From Chryseobacterium indologenes (GTDB taxonomy: Bacteria > Bacteroidota > Bacteroidia > Flavobacteriales > Weeksellaceae): a stretch of 64,000 bases of DNA. Location of the stretch: positions 3,038,001 through 3,102,000 of the forward strand of contig CP065590.1 of NCBI GenBank assembly GCA_016025055.1. The letters are read 5' to 3'. Shown in pieces: positions 56,056 through 64,000 of this stretch. The translations under genes and the position numbers were made by a program. Numbering within the stretch: position 1 is the first letter of the stretch; the number at the start of each line of letters is the position of its first letter. The notes beneath the pieces were generated by a model. It was given only the letters and a program-made list of their open reading frames with translations. It was not told the origin of the DNA and did no database searches.

Positions 56056-57321
56056 ATGAAAAAACTATTATTATCAGTGCTGGTAGTAACGGTAGGAATA
56101 TCGTGCAGCAAAGATGATGACCATTCCAATAACCAGGATATTAATTACTCAAAACTTCCTCAGGAATTTCCTTTTTCCACGTTGGCAACAATCAATGGAG
56201 TAGATGTGATCAATGGCGGATTCGGCTCCGGAGCCGCAGCTCACCCTTCCAGAAAGGGAGAATTTTATGTGATTACCGATAGAGGACCCAATACAGATTA
56301 TTTAAACGGAAAGAAATTTCTGACTCCTAATTTTACCCCAACCATTATGCATTTTAAGATCAATGCAGAAGGAAAAGTAGAAGTCATTCAATATATAAAA
56401 CTTAAGAATCCATCCGGTCAACCGATCACCGGATTACCCAACCCGGTAGGAATGGGAAGTACGGGTGAAGTAGCTTACGATGCATCCGGAAACGTTCTGG
56501 GAACTGATAAATATGGGTTGGACAGTGAAAGTATTGTCGCAGCTCCGGACGGTACATTCTGGGTTTCCGATGAATACGGACCTCATATCGTACATTACAG
56601 TGCAGAGGGAGTTGAAATGGAAAGAATAAGCCCGGTCGGCGTGAATACAGGCACCAGAAAACTTCCTGCTGTATTGGCCAAAAGAAGAGCCAACAGAGGA
56701 ATGGAAGGACTTTGCCTTACACCGGATGGTAGAACCTTAGTTGGTACAATCCAGTCTATGATGTATGTCCCGAGCAAAGCTGCCGCAAAAAATACAACGT
56801 TAACCAGAATTGTAACTTTTGACACGGTTACAGGTCAGACCAAACAGTTTTTATATAAACAGGAGGGCGGTGGCTCAGATTCTGTTTGTGATATTACAGC
56901 ATTAAGCAACACCGAATTCCTGGTAATCGAAAGAGATGGAAACTTCGGATCACAAGGAGGAATTAAAAAAGTATACAGAATCAATATCAGCGCAGCTACA
57001 GATGTTACAGGAACCGATATAAATGCTGTTGACGGAATGAAAGTGAATAATAAAGCACTGGAAGAATGCACCTGGGACGAATTAAATACAGCGGGAATAA
57101 AAACTGTAACTAAAACGTTAGCGGTAGATCTTGTGGCAAAACTGGGATATGAACATGATAAGTTTGAAGGAATAGTTTATCTGGGAAATAATAAACTGGC
57201 CGTTTTCAATGATGATGATTTCGGAGTGGTAGATGATGGAAACGGAAACCCGAAAGCAAAAATATTACCTAAAACAGGTAAAGTAGACAAAGGAACTATG
57301 TACATAGTCGATATTCAGTAA
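56056..57321 (+). CDS. Esterase-like activity of phytase family lipoprotein
   Basis: A 421-residue lipoprotein: signal MKKLLLSVLVVTVGISC with Cys17 followed by SKDDD. The mature protein is a beta-propeller-like fold of the 'esterase-like activity of phytase' family, with SGAAAHPSRKGEFYVITDRGPNTDYL (about 57-82), DSESIVAAPDGTFWVSDEYGPHIVHYS and KFEGIVYLGNNKLAVFNDDDFGV. These are exported hydrolases whose substrates are usually unknown. A TACTTTCG box lies at 56032-56039. Start at 56056 is chosen because the longer frame overlaps it. Confidence 0.85.
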   Translation: MKKLLLSVLVVTVGISCSKDDDHSNNQDINYSKLPQEFPFSTLATINGVDVINGGFGSGAAAHPSRKGEFYVITDRGPNTDYLNGKKFLTPNFTPTIMHFKINAEGKVEVIQYIKLKNPSGQPITGLPNPVGMGSTGEVAYDASGNVLGTDKYGLDSESIVAAPDGTFWVSDEYGPHIVHYSAEGVEMERISPVGVNTGTRKLPAVLAKRRANRGMEGLCLTPDGRTLVGTIQSMMYVPSKAAAKNTTLTRIVTFDTVTGQTKQFLYKQEGGGSDSVCDITALSNTEFLVIERDGNFGSQGGIKKVYRINISAATDVTGTDINAVDGMKVNNKALEECTWDELNTAGIKTVTKTLAVDLVAKLGYEHDKFEGIVYLGNNKLAVFNDDDFGVVDDGNGNPKAKILPKTGKVDKGTMYIVDIQ

Positions 57322-57336
57322 TTAGATTTTTTTAAA

Positions 57337-57368
57337 GAAAACGGCGAACATTTTGTTCGCCGTTTTTA
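57337..57368 (+). terminator. Terminator after the phytase-like gene
   Basis: Stem AAAACGGCGAAC/GTTCGCCGTTTT with loop ATTTT, then T-run. Confidence 0.9.
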
Positions 57369-57398
57369 TTTGGAGTTGGGAATAACATTTTCCATCAT

Positions 57399-57452
57399 AG
57401 CGGGCTTTAGCCCGTTTTCAAAAATACAATATTCCATCGGCTTCAGCCAAAA
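57399..57452. repeat. Pair of short intergenic palindromes
   Basis: CGGGCTTTAGCCCG followed 30 bases later by the related TCGGCTTCAGCCAA. Both have the form GGCTTnAGCC. They sit between two convergent genes and beyond the plus-strand terminator, so they may serve the minus-strand tpiA end or be dispersed repeats. Confidence 0.45.
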
Positions 57453-57467
57453 CTTACCATGACAGGA

Positions 57468-58226
57468 TTAGTTAAAAGCTTCAATAATCTTAGAGAAATC
57501 TTCCAGTTTTAAGGCAGCTCCACCGATAAGACCACCGTCAATATCCGGTTGTGAAAAAATTTCTTTAGCATTATCCGGTTTTACAGAACCTCCGTAAAGG
57601 ATAGAAACTTCGTCAGCAACTTCCTGTCCGTATTTCGCAGCAATAATGCTTCTGATGTGAGCGTGGATTTCCTGAGCTTGCTCAGGACTCGCTGTTTCTC
57701 CTGTTCCGATAGCCCATACAGGCTCGTAGGCGATAACCACTTTCTTAATTTCTTCAGCAGAAAGGGTAAATAGAGCAACTTCAGTCTGGTTTTTTACCAC
57801 TTCAAAGTGCTCTCCTGCTTTTCTTTGCTCAAGAGTTTCCCCGTTGCAATACACAGGAATAAGACCTTTGTCAAGAGCCAGTTTAATCTTTCTGTTGCAG
57901 TGAGAATCTGTTTCACCGTGGTATTGTCTTCTTTCAGAATGTCCGATTAATGAGCCGGTTGCATCGATAGATTCAAGCATATCTGCAGAGATTTCTCCGG
58001 TATAGGCACCGCTCTCATGCTCGCTCATGTCCTGGGAAAATACCCCGATTTCATCCTTTTCAAAGATGTCTTTGGCCATCATCAGGTATAATGAAGGGGG
58101 AGCAATCCAAACCTCACAGTTGGTAGTATTGTTATTTTTATAGCTTAGTAACTGAATCATCAATTGTTGTGCATCAATTACATTTTTGTTCATTTTCCAG
58201 TTGCCTGCAACTATTTTTCTTCTCAT
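57468..58226 (-). CDS. tpiA: Triosephosphate isomerase
   Basis: A 252-residue TIM-barrel enzyme of glycolysis. GNWKMNK at residues 7-13 holds the catalytic Lys; His is in LIGHSERRQYHGE (about 93-105), Glu in VVIAYEPVWAIGTG (about 164-177), and the phosphate-binding GGSVKPDNAKEI and GGLIGGAALK follow. Length and motifs are normal. Confidence 0.97.
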   Translation of the reverse strand: MRRKIVAGNWKMNKNVIDAQQLMIQLLSYKNNNTTNCEVWIAPPSLYLMMAKDIFEKDEIGVFSQDMSEHESGAYTGEISADMLESIDATGSLIGHSERRQYHGETDSHCNRKIKLALDKGLIPVYCNGETLEQRKAGEHFEVVKNQTEVALFTLSAEEIKKVVIAYEPVWAIGTGETASPEQAQEIHAHIRSIIAAKYGQEVADEVSILYGGSVKPDNAKEIFSQPDIDGGLIGGAALKLEDFSKIIEAFN

Positions 58227-58343
58227 AAGATTTATTATATTGATTTATTTACTTTTTATTCTTTCTCACCAGATAATCTGAGGGCTTTTTTATCTCTCGC
58301 TGATTAGATTGATTGAGCAGATTATTGGAGTCATAATACACAT

Positions 58344-58721
58344 TTATAGATTGTTTACAACTCTTTTTATACTGTCTAATATATTTGCCGTATTGAAGTT
58401 AATCAATAATCCTAATTTTTTATCAGATAACTTTAAATAAGTATTCAATTGTTTATAGTGAACGTTATCTAATTCTTTTACCGATTTCAATTCCAGAATG
58501 ACCTTATCTTCAATTAAAATGTCAATTTTAAAATTGATATCAAACTTTTTGTCATCATAATAAACAGGAAGTATAACTTCGGATTTAACATTCAGATCAT
58601 TTTTTTCTAATTCATAAATCAGTATTTTTTGATATACAGATTCCAATAAACCAGGTCCTAACTGGTTATATACATTGAAAACAGATTTTCGTACGATATA
58701 TGAAATTTCGTTTTCTGTCAT
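58344..58721 (-). CDS. GxxExxY family protein
   Basis: A 125-residue protein with the family motif GPGLLESVYQKIL (about 21-33), a downstream KIDILIEDKVILELKSVKEL (Asp and ELK, the PD-(D/E)XK-like triad) and YLKLSDKKLGLLINF. The fold suggests a nuclease-like domain, but no activity is established for the family. Such genes are often scattered and vary between strains. A tandem-like string of CTGCGNNATCTGCG lies just upstream. It stands in the middle of an otherwise conserved tpiA to folP block. Confidence 0.85.
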   Translation of the reverse strand: MTENEISYIVRKSVFNVYNQLGPGLLESVYQKILIYELEKNDLNVKSEVILPVYYDDKKFDINFKIDILIEDKVILELKSVKELDNVHYKQLNTYLKLSDKKLGLLINFNTANILDSIKRVVNNL

Positions 58722-58728
58722 AATAAAT

Positions 58729-58760
58729 AATCTGCGTGATCTGCGAAATCTGCGAGCAAA
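58729..58760. repeat. Short CTGCG-type repeat beside the GxxExxY gene
   Basis: CTGCG occurs three times (CTGCGTGAT, CTGCGAAAT, CTGCGAGCA) in 30 bases just upstream of the gene. A related TCTCGCTGATTAGATTGA string lies on its other side near 58295. Confidence 0.45.
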
Positions 58761-58763
58761 ATA

Positions 58764-59114
58764 TTACGCAATCCCCCAAAGATTCTTCAGCAGAATATAG
58801 AATGTATGCTCCTCTTCAGTTACTTTATTATCTGCTTTGATAAGTGATTTGGCAAACTGAACAAACTTTACACGCTCATCTTCTGTAGAATCATCCAGGA
58901 AGCATCTTGCATGAAATTCAAAATGATCTTTCCATTCCTCAGGCTGTAAAAGAGCAAGGGTTTCAAGTTCATTGTCAAGATTCATTCTGAAAGGAAATTC
59001 GTCAGCAAGATATTGTTGTACAAGCATCCCTTCTTCCGGAGCAAACTCTCCGTCTACAGAAGAAAGGATCATTAATAAGTGGTATCCTGCAATTGATTTA
59101 TTTGATTTTTGCAT
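58764..59114 (-). CDS. TerB-like protein
   Basis: A 116-residue all-helical protein resembling the TerB family: YHLLMILSSVDGEFAPEEGMLVQQYL (about 11-36) with an Asp-Gly-Glu turn, then AKSLIKADNKVTEEEHTFY with a second DNKVTEEE turn that could bind metal. Function is unknown. It follows the BT_3928 gene by 47 bases in the same direction. Confidence 0.8.
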   Translation of the reverse strand: MQKSNKSIAGYHLLMILSSVDGEFAPEEGMLVQQYLADEFPFRMNLDNELETLALLQPEEWKDHFEFHARCFLDDSTEDERVKFVQFAKSLIKADNKVTEEEHTFYILLKNLWGIA

Positions 59115-59161
59115 TGTTTTTTTGAATTTATAGTTTAGTGTTTACGTCTCCCGATTATTTC

Positions 59162-60269
59162 TTACTTTATATAATCCTTTGCAGGCTGTTTATCTACAAT
59201 TTTTCCATTTTGAAGAATCAGAACAAACGGGTTGCTTCTTGCAATGGTTTTAATAGCAGTACCGTCCATCATGGCATTTTTAATCGTTTTAAAAGTATTC
59301 TGATCTGTTGAAACGCCATATATAACTGCTCCTTTCTGAGTATTGACTTTGGTTTCTACCTTTTGAAGAAGATCGGCAGAAAACTCTTTCGGATGATAAG
59401 AAAATACTAAAACAGCTTTCGGAGCTTTGATGATCTCATCCGTAAGTTCCATTCCCGCAGGATCTTCAATCTTGAATTTTACAATCTCAGATTTATATCC
59501 TTCTTTTACAAGAACAGATTCATTTTTTCCTTCTTCAATCTTCCATGGAGAACCTTCTGCCCAGTATTTCGTTTCTTTGATGTAATCATCCTGGTTTACC
59601 TTTAAAATTTCTCCTGTTTTTTGATTTTTCAGAGAATAAAAGGTCTTATATTCAGAAGGATTTTTATTGATTTTTTCTTTTTCTCCTTTAATATCTGTTC
59701 CAACTTTATAATCACGGAAATCGATGATAGGTTCATGCATAATTCCTTGAGCCATAATGTAAATCATTCCCAAAGAAAATACAGCGAAAAGAGCATATTT
59801 GAACTTGCCTGTAGATTCTTTTTACTGCTTCCGTACTCATCCGTTTTACGGAAATCTTTTTATACAGAGCAAACAGAAGGATAAGTCCCACCAAAAGAGC
59901 AACATCTTTAAAGAAACTCTGCCAAGGCGTAAATTTAATAGCGTCTCCGAAGCATCCGCAATCTGTAACCACATTGAAATAGGCAGAATAGAATGTAAGG
60001 AATCCAAAGAACACACAAAGCGCTATCAATGCTGATAAGGTCAATTTTAGCTTCAGTTTAAGCAACAACATAAATCCGAGGAAAAGCTCGAGTACAACAA
60101 CAATAATTGAAAACAGCAACGCAAATTTTTCAAAAAACGGCATGTTGAATACAGCAGGTGAAAAATATTCCTCCATTTTGAAAGAGAATCCCACAAGATC
60201 CACAGCTTTCACAAAGCCGGACAGGATAAAAATAACTGCGATAATAAAGCGTAATAAACCTTTGATCAT
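59162..60269 (-). CDS. BT_3928 family protein (DoxX-like membrane part plus thioredoxin-like domain), interrupted by a 1-base frameshift
   Basis: About 368 residues. Four membrane helices form a DoxX/MauE-like unit (about 1-140), with FYSAYFNVVTDCGCFGDAIKFTPWQSFFKD holding the CGC motif. A linker with one more helix leads to an extracytoplasmic alpha/beta domain that ends RSNPFVLILQNGKIVDK, a thioredoxin-like end. One base too many in the T-run 59819-59823 splits it; removing it joins VKE-STGKFKYALFAVFSLGMIYIMAQG. It starts 1 base after the DUF1599 stop. Confidence 0.85.
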
Positions 60270-60270
60270 A

Positions 60271-60837
60271 TTAAATAGTTTTGGGTTCGAATTGATTTTC
60301 TTTTTCCGAGAACTTAATCAGACAGAAAACAGCATAGTTCAGCATGTCGAAATAATTGGCATCAAGACCTTCAGAAACAATCGTTTTGCCCTGGTTATCC
60401 TCAATCTGCTTCGTTCTCAGTACTTTCTGATAAATAAGATCTGTGATGGAAGAAATTCTCATATCTCTCCACGCCTCACCGTAATCATGATTTTTTCGCT
60501 CCATTAAAGCCTGGGCTTCATGAGCATATTTGTCATACAGACTTATGATCTCTTCTTTATTTTCGTTGAAATCATTGGAAAACCCTTTTTCAAGCTGAAT
60601 AAGACCAATGATAGAGTAGTTGACAATTGCAATAAATTCATCCTCCTCACTTTCATCTACCATCTTTTTATCGGTCATTTGCAATGTACGGATTCTGTTG
60701 ACTTTAATATAAATCTGATCCGTAATGGAACTCGGTCGCAAAACCCTCCATGCTGCCCCGTAATCCTGTAGCTTTTTACTGAAAAGGTCACGACACTGAC
60801 TGATAACTTTCTCGAACTGTACTGATGTTTTTAGCAT
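60271..60837 (-). CDS. DUF1599 protein, internally duplicated
   Basis: A 188-residue protein of two DUF1599 copies: CRDLFSKKLQDYGAAWRVLR...SSITDQIYIKVNRIR (about 15-55) and AQALMERKNHDYGEAWRDMR...SSITDLIYQKVLRTK (about 110-150). DYGxAWR and SITDxIYxKV are repeated in each. The fold is helical and has been compared with nucleotide pyrophosphohydrolases. It heads the minus-strand operon and is divergent from folP, as in other flavobacteria. Confidence 0.88.
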   Translation of the reverse strand: MLKTSVQFEKVISQCRDLFSKKLQDYGAAWRVLRPSSITDQIYIKVNRIRTLQMTDKKMVDESEEDEFIAIVNYSIIGLIQLEKGFSNDFNENKEEIISLYDKYAHEAQALMERKNHDYGEAWRDMRISSITDLIYQKVLRTKQIEDNQGKTIVSEGLDANYFDMLNYAVFCLIKFSEKENQFEPKTI

Positions 60838-61049
60838 AAATTTTCTTAATCTTCCAAATATACGAATTGTTTTAGATTGGTAGCAAAGTACGGAGGTGAG
60901 AGGGAAGGTGGGAGTATTTGAGAGTCTGAGAATAGGAACGTTAAGCTGTAAGGGTTTGCAGCCACCGGTAAAAAGGATCCGATTCTTTACACTGATCTTC
61001 GTGTTTCAGGTACAATTTATTAATTTTGCAGCAGATAAATCTTGCTCTT

Positions 61050-61916
61050 ATGCTCTCCAATCCTCCAATTCTCCAACCCTCCGACAACCCAACTTACTCA
61101 ATCAACTGCAACGGCCGTTTGGTACAGCTTGATACTCCAAAAATCATGGGAATTCTCAATCTGACTCCTGATTCCTTTTCGGACGGTGGAAAGTTTAACA
61201 CAGAAAAAAGGGCATTGGAACATGCGGAAAAGCTATTGAGTGAAGGCGCCGAAATTCTGGATATTGGACCACAATCCACACGCCCGAATGCAGAGTTTTT
61301 GACCAGTCAGGAAGAAATACAAAGAATCGGGAATACCATTTCCCAGATCAAAAAAGAATTTCCTCACACATTGATCTCTCTGGATACATTTTATGCAGAG
61401 ACCGTACGCTTTGGCTTTAATGAAGGCATAGATATTATTAACGATATTTCCGGTGGACAATATGATGCACAGATGTTTGATGCGGCCGCGGAAACTGGTC
61501 TTCCCTATATTTTAATGCATGTAAATCCGTCTTACGAATCAATGCATGACAAAATTAAATTTACAGATATTACCTTTGAAGTCAACAGGTATTTCTCTCA
61601 AAAAACAGCAGAACTTTTGCAAAAGGGAGTAAAAGATATAATTCTTGATCCTGGTTTTGGTTTTGGAAAAACAGTAGAAGATCAGATGAAAATGATCCAT
61701 GAAGTGAAGTATCTTGGATTTGAAAATTTCCCTTTATTAATCGGGATTTCGAGAAAATCATTTATTTATAAACCCCTAGGGAAGTCACCAATGGATATCA
61801 ATGAAGAAACTCAGAAACTCCATCAGACAGTCCTTGAACAGGGAGCCAAAATTTTGAGAGTGCATGATGTCGCTCAGGCAAAGGAAACTTTAGTGCACTT
61901 TTTACAAAAAAAATAA
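61050..61916 (+). CDS. folP: Dihydropteroate synthase
   Basis: A 288-residue TIM-barrel enzyme of folate synthesis and the target of sulfonamides. Motifs: MGILNLTPDSFSDGGKF (about 33-49), ILDIGPQSTRPNA, NDISGGQYD, ILMHVNPS, ILDPGFGFGKTVEDQ and GISRKSFI. The start at 61050 is the first ATG; a TTG upstream overlaps the -7 box TAATTTTG (61021-61028). The first 15 residues (LSNPPILQPSDNPTY) have no counterpart in the family and are encoded by a low-complexity CT-rich stretch. Confidence 0.93.
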   Translation: MLSNPPILQPSDNPTYSINCNGRLVQLDTPKIMGILNLTPDSFSDGGKFNTEKRALEHAEKLLSEGAEILDIGPQSTRPNAEFLTSQEEIQRIGNTISQIKKEFPHTLISLDTFYAETVRFGFNEGIDIINDISGGQYDAQMFDAAAETGLPYILMHVNPSYESMHDKIKFTDITFEVNRYFSQKTAELLQKGVKDIILDPGFGFGKTVEDQMKMIHEVKYLGFENFPLLIGISRKSFIYKPLGKSPMDINEETQKLHQTVLEQGAKILRVHDVAQAKETLVHFLQKK

Positions 61917-61932
61917 AAAGTGTTAAAAAAAC

Positions 61933-61962
61933 TTGTGAGTAATTAAAAAGTTTATACATTTG
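61933..61962 (+). promoter_or_regulatory. Promoter of the ilv leader
   Basis: TTG at 61933-61935, then 19 bases, then TACATTTG at 61955-61962: a perfect Bacteroidota promoter. Four bases separate it from the ATG of the first leader peptide, so transcription should start at or beside that ATG. Confidence 0.85.
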
Positions 61963-61966
61963 CAAC

Positions 61967-62050
61967 ATGAATTTTACGAATCAGAAAAATATCATCGTCA
62001 TTTCTATTATTGCTGTTGTCATTAACAACAGTAAGGAAACGGCATTTTAA
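61967..62050 (+). CDS. Ile/Val-rich leader peptide 1 of the ilv operon
   Basis: A 27-codon ORF starting MNFTNQKN and then IIVISIIAVVI (codons 61991-62023), followed by NNSKETAF. Nine of these eleven codons are Ile or Val. The antiterminator segment GAAACGGC (62036-62043) lies 12 bases beyond the Ile/Val codons and within the ORF, so a ribosome that finishes the peptide would cover it and one that stalls would leave it free. Probably translated from a leaderless or nearly leaderless mRNA. Confidence 0.75.
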   Translation: MNFTNQKNIIVISIIAVVINNSKETAF

Positions 62051-62106
62051 ATAGATTTTAAATTTAAATTATATACAGGCCGTTTCAATTTGAAACGGCT
62101 TTTTTT
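62036..62106 (+). promoter_or_regulatory. Attenuator 1 (terminator plus competing antiterminator) of the ilv leader
   Basis: The terminator is GCCGTTTCA (62079-62087), loop ATT, TGAAACGGC (62091-62099), then seven T. The antiterminator is GAAACGGC at 62036-62043, which pairs over 8 bp with GCCGTTTC at 62079-62086 and so excludes the terminator stem. The geometry is that of classical amino-acid attenuation. Confidence 0.8.
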
Positions 62107-62131
62107 ATTTTAATTTTTTATTGTACAAAGT

Positions 62132-62188
62132 ATGTATCAGTTATTAAGCGTAGTTATTATCGTCATTATTATTCCCTTGCGTCTGTGA
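62132..62188 (+). CDS. Leu/Val/Ile-rich leader peptide 2 of the ilv operon
   Basis: An 18-codon ORF reading MYQLLSVVIIVIIIPLRL and TGA. Ten of residues 4-14 are Leu, Val or Ile, and the pattern recalls the enterobacterial ilvG leader. It lies after terminator 1 and can be made only if attenuator 1 is read through. It ends inside the second antiterminator segment. Confidence 0.75.
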   Translation: MYQLLSVVIIVIIIPLRL

Positions 62189-62250
62189 GAAGGAAAGTGT
62201 ATGACTTTACATATATCGGGCCCTCTCACAGCGTGAGAGGGCTTTTTTTT
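62183..62250 (+). promoter_or_regulatory. Attenuator 2 of the ilv leader
   Basis: The terminator is GCCCTCTCAC (62220-62229), loop AGC, GTGAGAGGGC (62233-62242), then eight T. CTGTGAGA at 62183-62190 pairs over 8 bp with TCTCACAG at 62224-62231 as antiterminator. The ilvE start is 34 bases after the T-run. Confidence 0.8.
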
Positions 62251-62283
62251 ATTCCATTTGTTAATTTTTTAAACCAGTACAGC

Positions 62284-63147
62284 ATGTATTACAACGACGA
62301 CACGGTCATCTATTTTAACGGTAACTTCAGAAAAGCAAAAGAAGCCGGAACCGATCTTTACGGGCAATCTCTTCACTACGGATACTCCGTTTTCGAAGGA
62401 ATTAAATCTTACAGTACCGATAACGGAACGAAAATTTTTAAAGCAAAAGAACATTACGAAAGGTTAAAAAGATCCGCCGACCTGATGCATATTCCGTTTG
62501 AATATTCTGTAGAGCAGCTTACAGATCTTACCTATGAACTTTTGGAGAAAAATGGATTTTCAGATGCTTATATCCGTCCGTTGGTGACCTGCTCACCCAA
62601 TATGTCACTTTCAAAAGGGAAAGAATCTTACCTCTCCCTGTTAGCATGGGAATGGAATAACGGTTATCTGGCAGATAAAATGAAGATCGTGACTTCAGAA
62701 TTTCAACGCCCGAATCCCAAAGCTTTTAAAGTGGAAGCCAAAGTAGGAGGGCATTATGTGAATTCGATCCTTGCTTGTCAGGATGCCAAAGACAAAGGCT
62801 ACGATGAAGCTTTGGTTCTGGATGAAAACGGAAATGTTGCCGAAAGTTCAGGAGCCAATGTTTTCTATGAAAAAGACGGTACATTATTCACTCCCGCCAA
62901 AGGAAGTATCCTTCCCGGAATTACCAGACAAACAGTGATGGAAATCTGTCATGAACTTCAGATCCCCGTGAAAGAAACATTCTTTAAACCCGAAGAAATG
63001 CGTGGTGCTGATGCAGGCTTTTTCTGTGGTACCGCAGCAGAAATTGTTGCTCTTGATTCATTGGATGATGTTTCCTTTACCAAAAATTGGGAAGATACGC
63101 TAAGTCATAAAGTACAGGAGGCTTATTTAAAATTAGTAAGATTTTAG
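62284..63147 (+). CDS. ilvE: Branched-chain amino acid aminotransferase
   Basis: A 287-residue PLP enzyme of fold type IV that makes Val, Leu and Ile from their keto acids. Motifs: LYGQSLHYGYSVFEGIKSY (about 20-38), KVGGHYVNSILACQDAKDKGYDEALVLDENGNVAESSGANVFY (about 151-195, with the PLP Lys at its start) and SILPGITRQTVMEI (about 206-219). The ATG at 62284 is preferred; a longer frame from a GTG at 62185 would run through attenuator 2. ilvD follows after 329 bases on the same strand. Confidence 0.95.
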   Translation: MYYNDDTVIYFNGNFRKAKEAGTDLYGQSLHYGYSVFEGIKSYSTDNGTKIFKAKEHYERLKRSADLMHIPFEYSVEQLTDLTYELLEKNGFSDAYIRPLVTCSPNMSLSKGKESYLSLLAWEWNNGYLADKMKIVTSEFQRPNPKAFKVEAKVGGHYVNSILACQDAKDKGYDEALVLDENGNVAESSGANVFYEKDGTLFTPAKGSILPGITRQTVMEICHELQIPVKETFFKPEEMRGADAGFFCGTAAEIVALDSLDDVSFTKNWEDTLSHKVQEAYLKLVRF

Positions 63148-63476
63148 TCATTGTAGATTTTTAAAGTATAAGTATTTGATTGTTAATTTTTTATGTGTTA
63201 TTTATAAACGATTGAATATTGTAGTTTTCAATAAAATCGAAATTAAGGAAAATATGACAAGCTGTAGTTTTGAACCAAAATTTAGGAAAAAGCTTCATTG
63301 ATACGTTATGAAAATCTAAAACTTTCAAAATTTTACTGAGAAATAGACAACGCATGTAAGGAAACTCGGGGAATAGTAAAAAGAACCGGATTATAACGAA
63401 CGGATATAGATAGCTAGGGATTTGTTTAACGCTAACAGAACCTTATTTAGAGGAAGAAATAAAAAAAAGGATAAAT
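63148..63476 (+). other. ilvE-ilvD intergenic region
   Basis: About 330 bases, AT-rich, without an ORF or a clear terminator, so ilvD may be read from the ilv leader. A weak promoter candidate is TTG at 63422-63424, 19 bases, then TATTTAGA at 63444-63451, 25 bases before the ilvD ATG; the -7 match is poor. No leader-peptide-like ORF was found here. Confidence 0.4.
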
Positions 63477-64000
63477 ATGTTGAATAAATATTCAAAAACA
63501 TTCACCCAAAATAATGAGCAGCCTGCTGCAAAAGCGATGTTGTATGGAATAGGCTTTTCAGAGGAAGATATGCAGAAGGCCCAGGTTGGCATTGCAAGTA
63601 TGGGATATGACGGAAATACCTGCAATATGCATTTAAATGATCTGGCAAAAGTAGTCAAAAAAGGAACCTGGAATCATGGTCTTGCTGGATTGATTTTTAA
63701 TACAATCGGCGTAAGTGACGGAATGAGTAACGGCACAGACGGAATGCGCTACTCACTGGTCAGCAGAGATGTCATTGCAGACAGTATAGAAGCAATTTGT
63801 GGAGCCCAGTATTATGATGGCGTCATTGCCTTACCGGGATGTGACAAAAATATGCCGGGCACGCTCATAGCGATGGGAAGACTCAACAGACCTTCGATCA
63901 TGGTCTATGGAGGAACAATCGCTCCGGGCTGTTATAAAGGAGAATCATTGAATATAGTTTCAGCATTTGAAGCGCTGGGAAAAAAAATTGCAGGGGAGAT
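63477..64000 (+). CDS. ilvD: Dihydroxy-acid dehydratase, 5' part (runs off the window)
   Basis: The first 174 residues of a [Fe-S] dehydratase of valine and isoleucine synthesis. [27 protein letters not shown] is the normal N-terminus. The segments [21 protein letters not shown] (Cys cluster ligand), [20 protein letters not shown] and [31 protein letters not shown] (second Cys) are characteristic. It follows ilvE and would be under the same tandem attenuators if co-transcribed. Confidence 0.95.

Follow-up and report, generated by a model that had tools for sequence, protein, structure and literature searches.

Putative leader-peptide attenuators in series upstream of the ilv operon of Chryseobacterium indologenes

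Leader-peptide attenuation is familiar from textbooks as a regulatory mechanism of Proteobacteria, in which attenuation was reportedly surveyed comparatively by Vitreschak and colleagues in 2004. In the enterobacterial ilvGMEDA, trp and his attenuators, the leader RNA can form 1:2, 2:3 and 3:4 pairings, the control codons are placed at the end of the leader, segment 2 is masked once a ribosome reaches the stop codon, and each operon has a single unit. The leader region described here, which precedes the ilv genes of C. indologenes, is predicted to form the same pairings but has two units (three in relatives), a first leader that is predicted to be leaderless and a promoter of the Bacteroidota type.

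Several described systems share parts of this arrangement and are compared here from excerpts of the papers cited. The ilvBNC attenuator of C. glutamicum similarly places a leader with Ile, Val and Leu codons before ilv genes and has a terminator and an anti-terminator; its +1 lies one nucleotide from the leader start codon, which is needed for full expression, but it is a single unit, in Actinobacteria, with another gene order (PMC11857589). The leader of Salmonella mgtCBR contains two short ORFs and two attenuators, but its signals differ (ATP and proline) and are additive, and its stem-loops are unlike intrinsic terminators (PMC3641672), whereas our locus has two intrinsic terminators and, as read from the codons, one shared signal. 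The mefA/msrD macrolide operon also has two leader-peptide transcription attenuators, of which the second relies on an intrinsic terminator; however, this second attenuator governs msrD only, and arrest depends on macrolides rather than on amino-acid starvation (PMC10314930). The tandem riboswitches of Bacillus clausii metE (as described in PMC3641672) likewise place two sites anticipated to be intrinsic terminators in one leader, but respond to two different signals that are sensed directly by the RNA. Finally, two synthetic pT181 attenuators in series improved dynamic range, although these are engineered and controlled by antisense RNA (PMC3753616).

In the titles and abstract openings of the open-licence PubMed Central matches listed, no description was found of leader-peptide attenuators arranged in series ahead of an amino-acid operon, mgtCBR and mefA/msrD being the closest. 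The original prediction for this locus had called a serial arrangement unusual, which holds for the literature searched but not for this lineage, where the arrangement is common. It had also described attenuation as little described in Bacteroidota, which is about right, although attenuation is not unprecedented there: the regions ahead of amino-acid operons in Flavobacterium psychrophilum, a member of the same class of bacteria, are reported to show strong clues for this mechanism, in a paper whose excerpts mention no serial units and whose main text does not contain 'ilv' (PMC9723704).

The ilv locus and its leader region

The stretch of DNA analyzed (the window) comprises 64,000 nt (G000:C1:3038001-3102000) of a 4.92-Mb genome in a single contig. 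The first gene of the operon that we propose to be controlled is ilvE, encoding a branched-chain aminotransferase (62284-63147, plus strand; above the cut-off of NCBIfam TIGR01122, ilvE_I), and the closest named ilvE found, that of Chryseobacterium phosphatilyticum, is 96% identical to it. The same strand continues with ilvD (63477-64000, by NCBIfam), which runs off the window, and then with ilvB, a short ilvN-like ORF, ilvC and ilvA (locus L070; ilvD, ilvB, ilvC and ilvA by NCBIfam), placing the Ile-specific step, ilvA, within the operon. The ORF between ilvB and ilvC (101 amino acids) presumably encodes the acetolactate synthase small subunit (ilvN), judging by resemblance. A dihydropteroate synthase gene (61026-61916; TIGR01496) lies upstream of the attenuators. 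Separately, the first 153 nt of the gap between ilvE and ilvD (63150-63302) are 75% identical to a stretch directly upstream of leuA (L273, G000:C1:4048399-4048550), and no third copy of this element was listed in the genome; the likeness is unexplained and may represent a shared regulatory element or a duplication.

Between the upstream gene and leader 1, a promoter can be read at 61933-61962 on the plus strand, consisting of TTG at 61933-61935, which we take to be the Bacteroidota -33 element, a 19-nt spacer and the Bacteroidota -7 box TAnnTTTG at 61955-61962. A sigma-70 promoter scan listed no promoter here; the site instead fits the TAnnTTTG box, which occupies -12 to -5 in Bacteroidota (PMC9723704). 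Since this box ends 4 nt ahead of the ATG of leader 1, the +1 is predicted to be the A of that ATG (61967), and leader 1 is thus predicted to be leaderless, with the AUG as the first base of the transcript. Of 52 tandem relatives, 51 keep this 4-nt gap between box and ATG, while 35 of the 36 leaders of the single-unit clade described below have a gap of 16-21 nt. Within the same genome the gap is 4 nt for the trp leader, which on this basis is predicted to be another leaderless leader, and 17 nt for the his leader. Leaderless or near-leaderless attenuator peptides are known from S. meliloti (trpL; PMC7298713) and C. glutamicum (ilvL; PMC11857589), and Shine-Dalgarno sequences are reported to be absent in flavobacteria (PMC9723704). 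A search for a second TAnnTTTG box, the only promoter type sought, found none between the units in any of 52 tandem sequences.

Leader ORF 1 (NIIVISIIAVVIN / MNFTNQKNIIVISIIAVVINNSKETAF; 61967-62050, plus strand) has 27 codons. Folding indicates a protector pairing (segments 1:2; 61997-62043) of 61997-61999 and 62001-62005 with 62035-62039 and 62041-62043, which would sequester the anti-terminator when the control codons carry no ribosome. Inside the leader-1 codons for Ala-Val-Val-Ile-Asn-Asn, alignment of 52 relatives places a hairpin of 6 bp (62013-62031). Anti-terminator segment 1, GAAACGGC (62036-62043), is complementary to 62079-62086 in intrinsic terminator 1 (62079-62106), whose stem at 62079-62099 is followed by seven T. 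Unit 2, also on the plus strand, repeats this order: leader ORF 2 (MYQLLSVVIIVIIIPLRL; 62132-62188) has 18 codons and holds LLSVVIIVIII; protector pairing 2 (62172-62195) joins 62172-62180 with 62185-62189 and 62192-62195; anti-terminator segment 2, CTGTGAGA-A-GG (62183-62193), pairs through 62183-62190 with 62224-62231 and through GG at 62192-62193 with 62221-62222; and intrinsic terminator 2 (62220-62250) has its stem at 62220-62242, followed by eight T. Reading the sequence confirmed all coordinates of the original prediction, to which the protector pairings are added here. A CCTT/AAGG stem considered in unit 2 was dropped, as its column varies in the alignment.

As read from the sequence, each unit thus contains a short ORF rich in codons for the end products, an intrinsic terminator before the first gene, a mutually exclusive anti-terminator and the geometry appropriate to a ribosome. 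Two complete leader-peptide (ribosome-mediated) transcription attenuators in series very probably control the ilv operon. From the one promoter, RNA polymerase would first transcribe leader 1. With Ile-tRNA and Val-tRNA charged, the ribosome would reach the leader stop codon and cover the anti-terminator, and terminator 1 would form; a ribosome stalled on the Ile/Val run would take away the protector strand, the anti-terminator would capture the 5' arm of the terminator, and the polymerase would pass. The polymerase would then meet unit 2 and the same test through leader 2. Because no second -7 box lies between the units, expression should require that both be passed, and the probabilities of read-through should multiply. 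Such a series would most likely raise fold-induction and lower leak, the signal, as judged by the codons, being essentially Ile, then Val, in both leaders.

Conservation, pairing and ribosome spacing

A strict scan of both strands of the 64-kb window (ATG leader with at least 7 Ile, Leu or Val in 10 codons; terminator of at least 8 bp with at least 5 G-C pairs; anti-terminator of at least 7 nt) identified 20 terminators, two of which had a leader; both of these had an anti-terminator and they are the two units described above. By comparison, 100 dinucleotide shuffles of the window contained a mean of 0.42 terminators each and, in total, two with a leader and one full unit. The observation is exact to the base and far above chance.

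An alignment of 52 distinct tandem sequences (L074 was dropped as a duplicate of L032) supports two complete attenuators before the ilv genes, in agreement with the original prediction. That prediction was to be given up if close relatives lacked the Ile/Val codons or the complementary segments; both are kept in the 52 tandem relatives, beside which 18 loci of the genus carry only one unit. The terminator stems are paired in 99.8% (unit 1) and 99.6% (unit 2) of cells, with compensatory changes. Taken together with the leader-1 hairpin, the two terminators are paired in 99.8% of cells, compared with 39-58% for slid controls, and show two-sided changes in 5 pairs where 2.1 are expected, a value reached by 0 of 500 shuffles; further pair types were not above shuffles (126 of 500 reached the value). 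The hairpin at 62013-62031 is paired in 100% of cells and has compensatory changes in three of its six pairs, the best covariation of the region, and is perhaps a pause hairpin. For the anti-terminator helices, pairing is preserved in 94.6% of cells (93-96% per helix; 96.4% for unit 1); these helices are nearly invariant and show no covariation beyond shuffles within the genus. Likewise, the protector helices are paired jointly in 98.1% of cells (99.0% for protector 1 and 97.2% for protector 2), with a two-sided change in one pair of one sequence and no excess covariation over shuffles for protector 1, and no two-sided changes for protector 2. In the single-unit clade (36 sequences after duplicates L087, L093 and L096 were dropped), 98.1% of terminator cells and 96.7% of anti-terminator cells are paired.

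Both leader ORFs are open in the 52 tandem sequences, leader 1 of L036 and L049 stopping just short of the anti-terminator; terminator 1 is shortened in Chryseobacterium culicis (L196). The codons are weakly constrained overall, with pN/pS values of 0.71 for leader 1 (19 distinct sequences, from the 23 whose slice is exactly 84 nt) and 0.63 for leader 2 (33 distinct sequences), which gives little support for a constrained leader peptide.

The anti-terminator was assessed over units that had been picked by leader and terminator alone (331 redundant units from 204 loci, reduced to 62 representatives). Pairing between the end of the leader and the 5' arm of its own terminator exceeds that of shuffled segments at p<0.05 in 48 of the 62 and at p<0.01 in 34, with p=0.003 and 0.013 for the window's units, and a median of only 5% of the arms of other representative units fit equally well. 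Protector pairing, assessed over 50 representative units, reached p<0.05 in 12 and p<0.25 in 34. A significant anti-terminator was missing in 14 of the 62 representatives, 10 of which lie upstream of ilvD in other genera.

The position of the anti-terminator relative to the last control codon is also informative. Its start falls 10-14 nt past the first base of that codon in 39 of 62 representatives (null, 7.9%), with a median of 12 nt where the null is broad with a median of 2. The leading edge of the ribosome lies 12-15 nt from the P site (PMC3641672); the anti-terminator begins at about the leading edge of a ribosome whose A site holds the last control codon, just clear of the stalled ribosome. 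In 50 units with strong pairing, the segment falls in a span that reaches from 35 nt ahead of the stop codon's end to 16 nt beyond it, so that a ribosome finishing the leader should mask the anti-terminator; the force of this point is limited by a search region that was itself bounded near the stop codon.

Folding of the window's units gave states that, in the model, are those of a classical attenuator. With the control codons occupied and the 3' arm of the terminator not yet made, the anti-terminator forms at -12.0 kcal/mol in unit 1 and -17.1 kcal/mol in unit 2; the terminator wins in both as soon as the 3' arm exists or the ribosome has reached the stop codon. With no ribosome on leader 1, 61997-62005 pairs with 62035-62043 and the terminator still forms. 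Since the complete RNA of either unit folds at equilibrium into the terminator and not the anti-terminator, kinetics must decide the outcome, just as they do for classical attenuators.

Unit number across Bacteroidota and leaders of other operons

The genus sample comprised 98 genomes, part of a larger group, of which 67 have an ilvE of the same kind and the other 31 gave distant matches only. Upstream DNA was read for these 67 genomes (68 loci) over 420 nt from ilvE, a span that misses units further out. By our reading of the resulting table, 48 loci have two units and 18 have one (66 assessable); one locus (L048) is cut by a contig end and another (L068) is a second ilvE copy. This copy (G081:C13) carries a two-unit leader of another genus, with the same leader peptides as L107, and may represent horizontal transfer or contamination. 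At another locus (L065, G003) the ilvE match holds one in-frame TAG, yet a leader and terminator are present upstream. A looser detector applied to 80 loci of named genomes found two units in 57, a single unit in 17 and three units in 3, and detected no unit in the remaining 3 (one of these, L212, is truncated); C. culicis was scored here as one unit because of its shortened terminator 1, and 35 of the 80 have upstream DNA identical to loci already read, making the named set not independent of the genus set.

Bacteroidota loci were thus found with one to three units each. Two units occur also in Pontibacter indicus, Gelidibacter and other lineages, and three were found at L112 (on the same contig as L253), at L255 and in Aequorivita xiaoshiensis (L251). 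Units 2 and 3 of these three-unit loci are 92-93% identical over 116 nt, which from the sequence is a clear sign of recent whole-unit duplication. The two units of the window were also considered as old duplicates, for which blastn gives matches of only 16-19 nt, leaving this unproven. At ilvD-first loci of other genera (40 hand-chosen from 157 matched genomes, with 30 loci, L118-L147, left out), one detectable unit was present in 19 of 40 and two in none.

In a tree of ilvE (12 loci dropped beforehand and 135 rows thinned to 108), the tandem Chryseobacterium rows form one clade (38 rows, one of them not assessable; SH-aLRT 99) and the single-unit rows of the genus and its relatives form another (30 rows; SH-aLRT 98). 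The number of units needs at least 12 changes on this tree, which was made by a quick method, has 47 of 105 inner branches below 80 and carries some hand-set labels (two units for L196, L103, L104 and L115, one for L063, blank for L048). The tree leaves open the fork that joins the tandem clade, the single-unit clade and a two-unit row labelled Flavobacterium beibuense. The contig so labelled (L236) carries two attenuators and an ilvE 76% identical to that of the window. Of the 68 distinct last units found at multi-unit loci, 61 have a TCTCA core in the terminator arm, as do 31 of 65 single units, compared with 2 of 85 first units (for this comparison and that of duplications, the single class excludes L103, L104, L113 and L196). 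The sharing of this core among ilvE-proximal units suggests a common proximal unit, with distal units that come and go.

Candidate attenuators were also found upstream of other amino-acid genes in the same genome, by a scan for hand-picked residues (H; W or F; T or I) that ran without a shuffled control. The region upstream of the hisG match (L268) contains the His-rich leader MKPIFLALHHYYHHLC at 1157, with a terminator and a complementary segment (unit 1157-1279) ahead of a candidate hisG start at 1351, and that upstream of trpE (L274, reverse strand, 710-847) contains the Trp-rich leader MLKINNNNWWWLSNSSSGLEVLSCC (WWW), again with a terminator and a complementary segment; one unit was found at each locus. 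Because the leader residues match the pathway in all three cases (ilv, his and trp), the pattern is hard to explain other than by attenuation. By eye, no leader attenuator was seen at leuA of this genome, nor was a candidate leader found at two homoserine dehydrogenase loci within 1.5-kb flanks that may fall short of the gene starts. As a separate observation, the HisG domain matches in two overlapping pieces (G000:C1:4004737-4005202), as expected if the gene has a frame break or the genome sequence contains an error.

Signals read by the leaders and alternative explanations

The original prediction held that the two leaders combine responses to different amino acids (Ile/Val, then Leu/Val/Ile); unit 1 would then read Ile/Val and unit 2 also Leu, giving an AND gate over the branched-chain amino acids. 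By codon content, both tandem leaders point to Ile/Val (5-7 Ile and 2-4 Val in leader 1; 5-8 Ile and 2-4 Val in leader 2 of tandem relatives), and the gate draws on the near confinement of Leu to leader 2 (median of 4 Leu codons, versus 0 in leader 1) and on the two Leu codons (TTA TTA) that precede the Ile/Val run of leader 2 in the window. However, Leu is absent from the first 22 residues in 49 of 51 first leaders (L017, whose ORF reaches further upstream, was missed by this count), and because leader 1 is almost without Leu, Leu starvation alone should not open terminator 1. In addition, positions 4-5 of leader 2, where its Leu residues lie, vary (LL, LF, LV, FF, IL) whereas the Ile/Val run hardly does, in other lineages Ile makes up 35% and Leu 4% of the last leaders (18 distinct peptides), and three-unit loci hold near-identical, duplicated units that would share one signal. 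Since leader 1 is nearly without Leu, both leaders are rich in Ile and ilvA is in the operon, we favor as likely, from the codons, one Ile (and Val) signal common to both leaders, its gain being multiplied; a combination of different amino acids is not supported by codon content, and an AND gate is unlikely.

It is quite unlikely, too, that sensing falls to the ilvE-proximal unit alone, with the distal one serving chiefly to stop transcription that arrives from the gene upstream, or being a copy in decay. Terminator 1 is the weaker one (mean of -14.5 versus -20.5 kcal/mol for terminator 2) and is shortened in C. culicis, and the single-unit clade lives without a second unit. Yet terminator 1 is as strong as the terminator of the single-unit clade (-13.9 kcal/mol), unit 1 keeps its anti-terminator and its terminator at the levels given above for the 52 tandem sequences, and no loss of unit 1 was found in the assessable rows of the tandem clade (with C. 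culicis set to two by hand); in addition, the promoter is placed between the neighboring upstream gene and leader 1. The small type I toxins are hydrophobic and about as short as leader 2, itself hydrophobic at 18 amino acids, and the ORFs might be such toxins or small membrane proteins with terminators of their own, placed before ilvE by accident. This is very improbable, since the place before ilv genes is kept across Bacteroidota by leaders that share little beyond Ile/Val runs, the spacing between the last control codon and the complementary segment is fixed, His and Trp leaders precede the his and trp genes of the same genome, and the second ORF has no TAnnTTTG box of its own. Least credible is membership of a known RNA family, be it a riboswitch, a T-box or an attenuator bound by a protein: a terminator/anti-terminator architecture is common to these classes, but no Rfam family reached its gathering score in 57000-64000, and the 12 sub-threshold hits in 61900-62300 belong to unrelated families, the best (E 0.0074) being far below the cut-off of its family.

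Under the shared-signal reading that we favor, the occurrence of one, two or three units in related bacteria suggests that unit number sets the strength of the response. It is quite possible, if short of probable, that Bacteroidota set gain by the number of serial attenuators for the same signal, gained by whole-unit duplication and lost again, with a leaderless AUG letting the first ribosome sense.

The comparative evidence is strong that leader-peptide attenuation governs the ilv operons, and probably the his and trp operons, of Bacteroidota, stacked two or three deep. The mechanism needs, and hence implies, close coupling between the leading ribosome and RNA polymerase in these bacteria. 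Because unit number differs between close clades, they offer a natural series for asking whether serial attenuators multiply fold-induction. If the proposal is true, the ilv leader would represent a naturally occurring cascade in which intrinsic attenuators multiply signals rather than integrating them.
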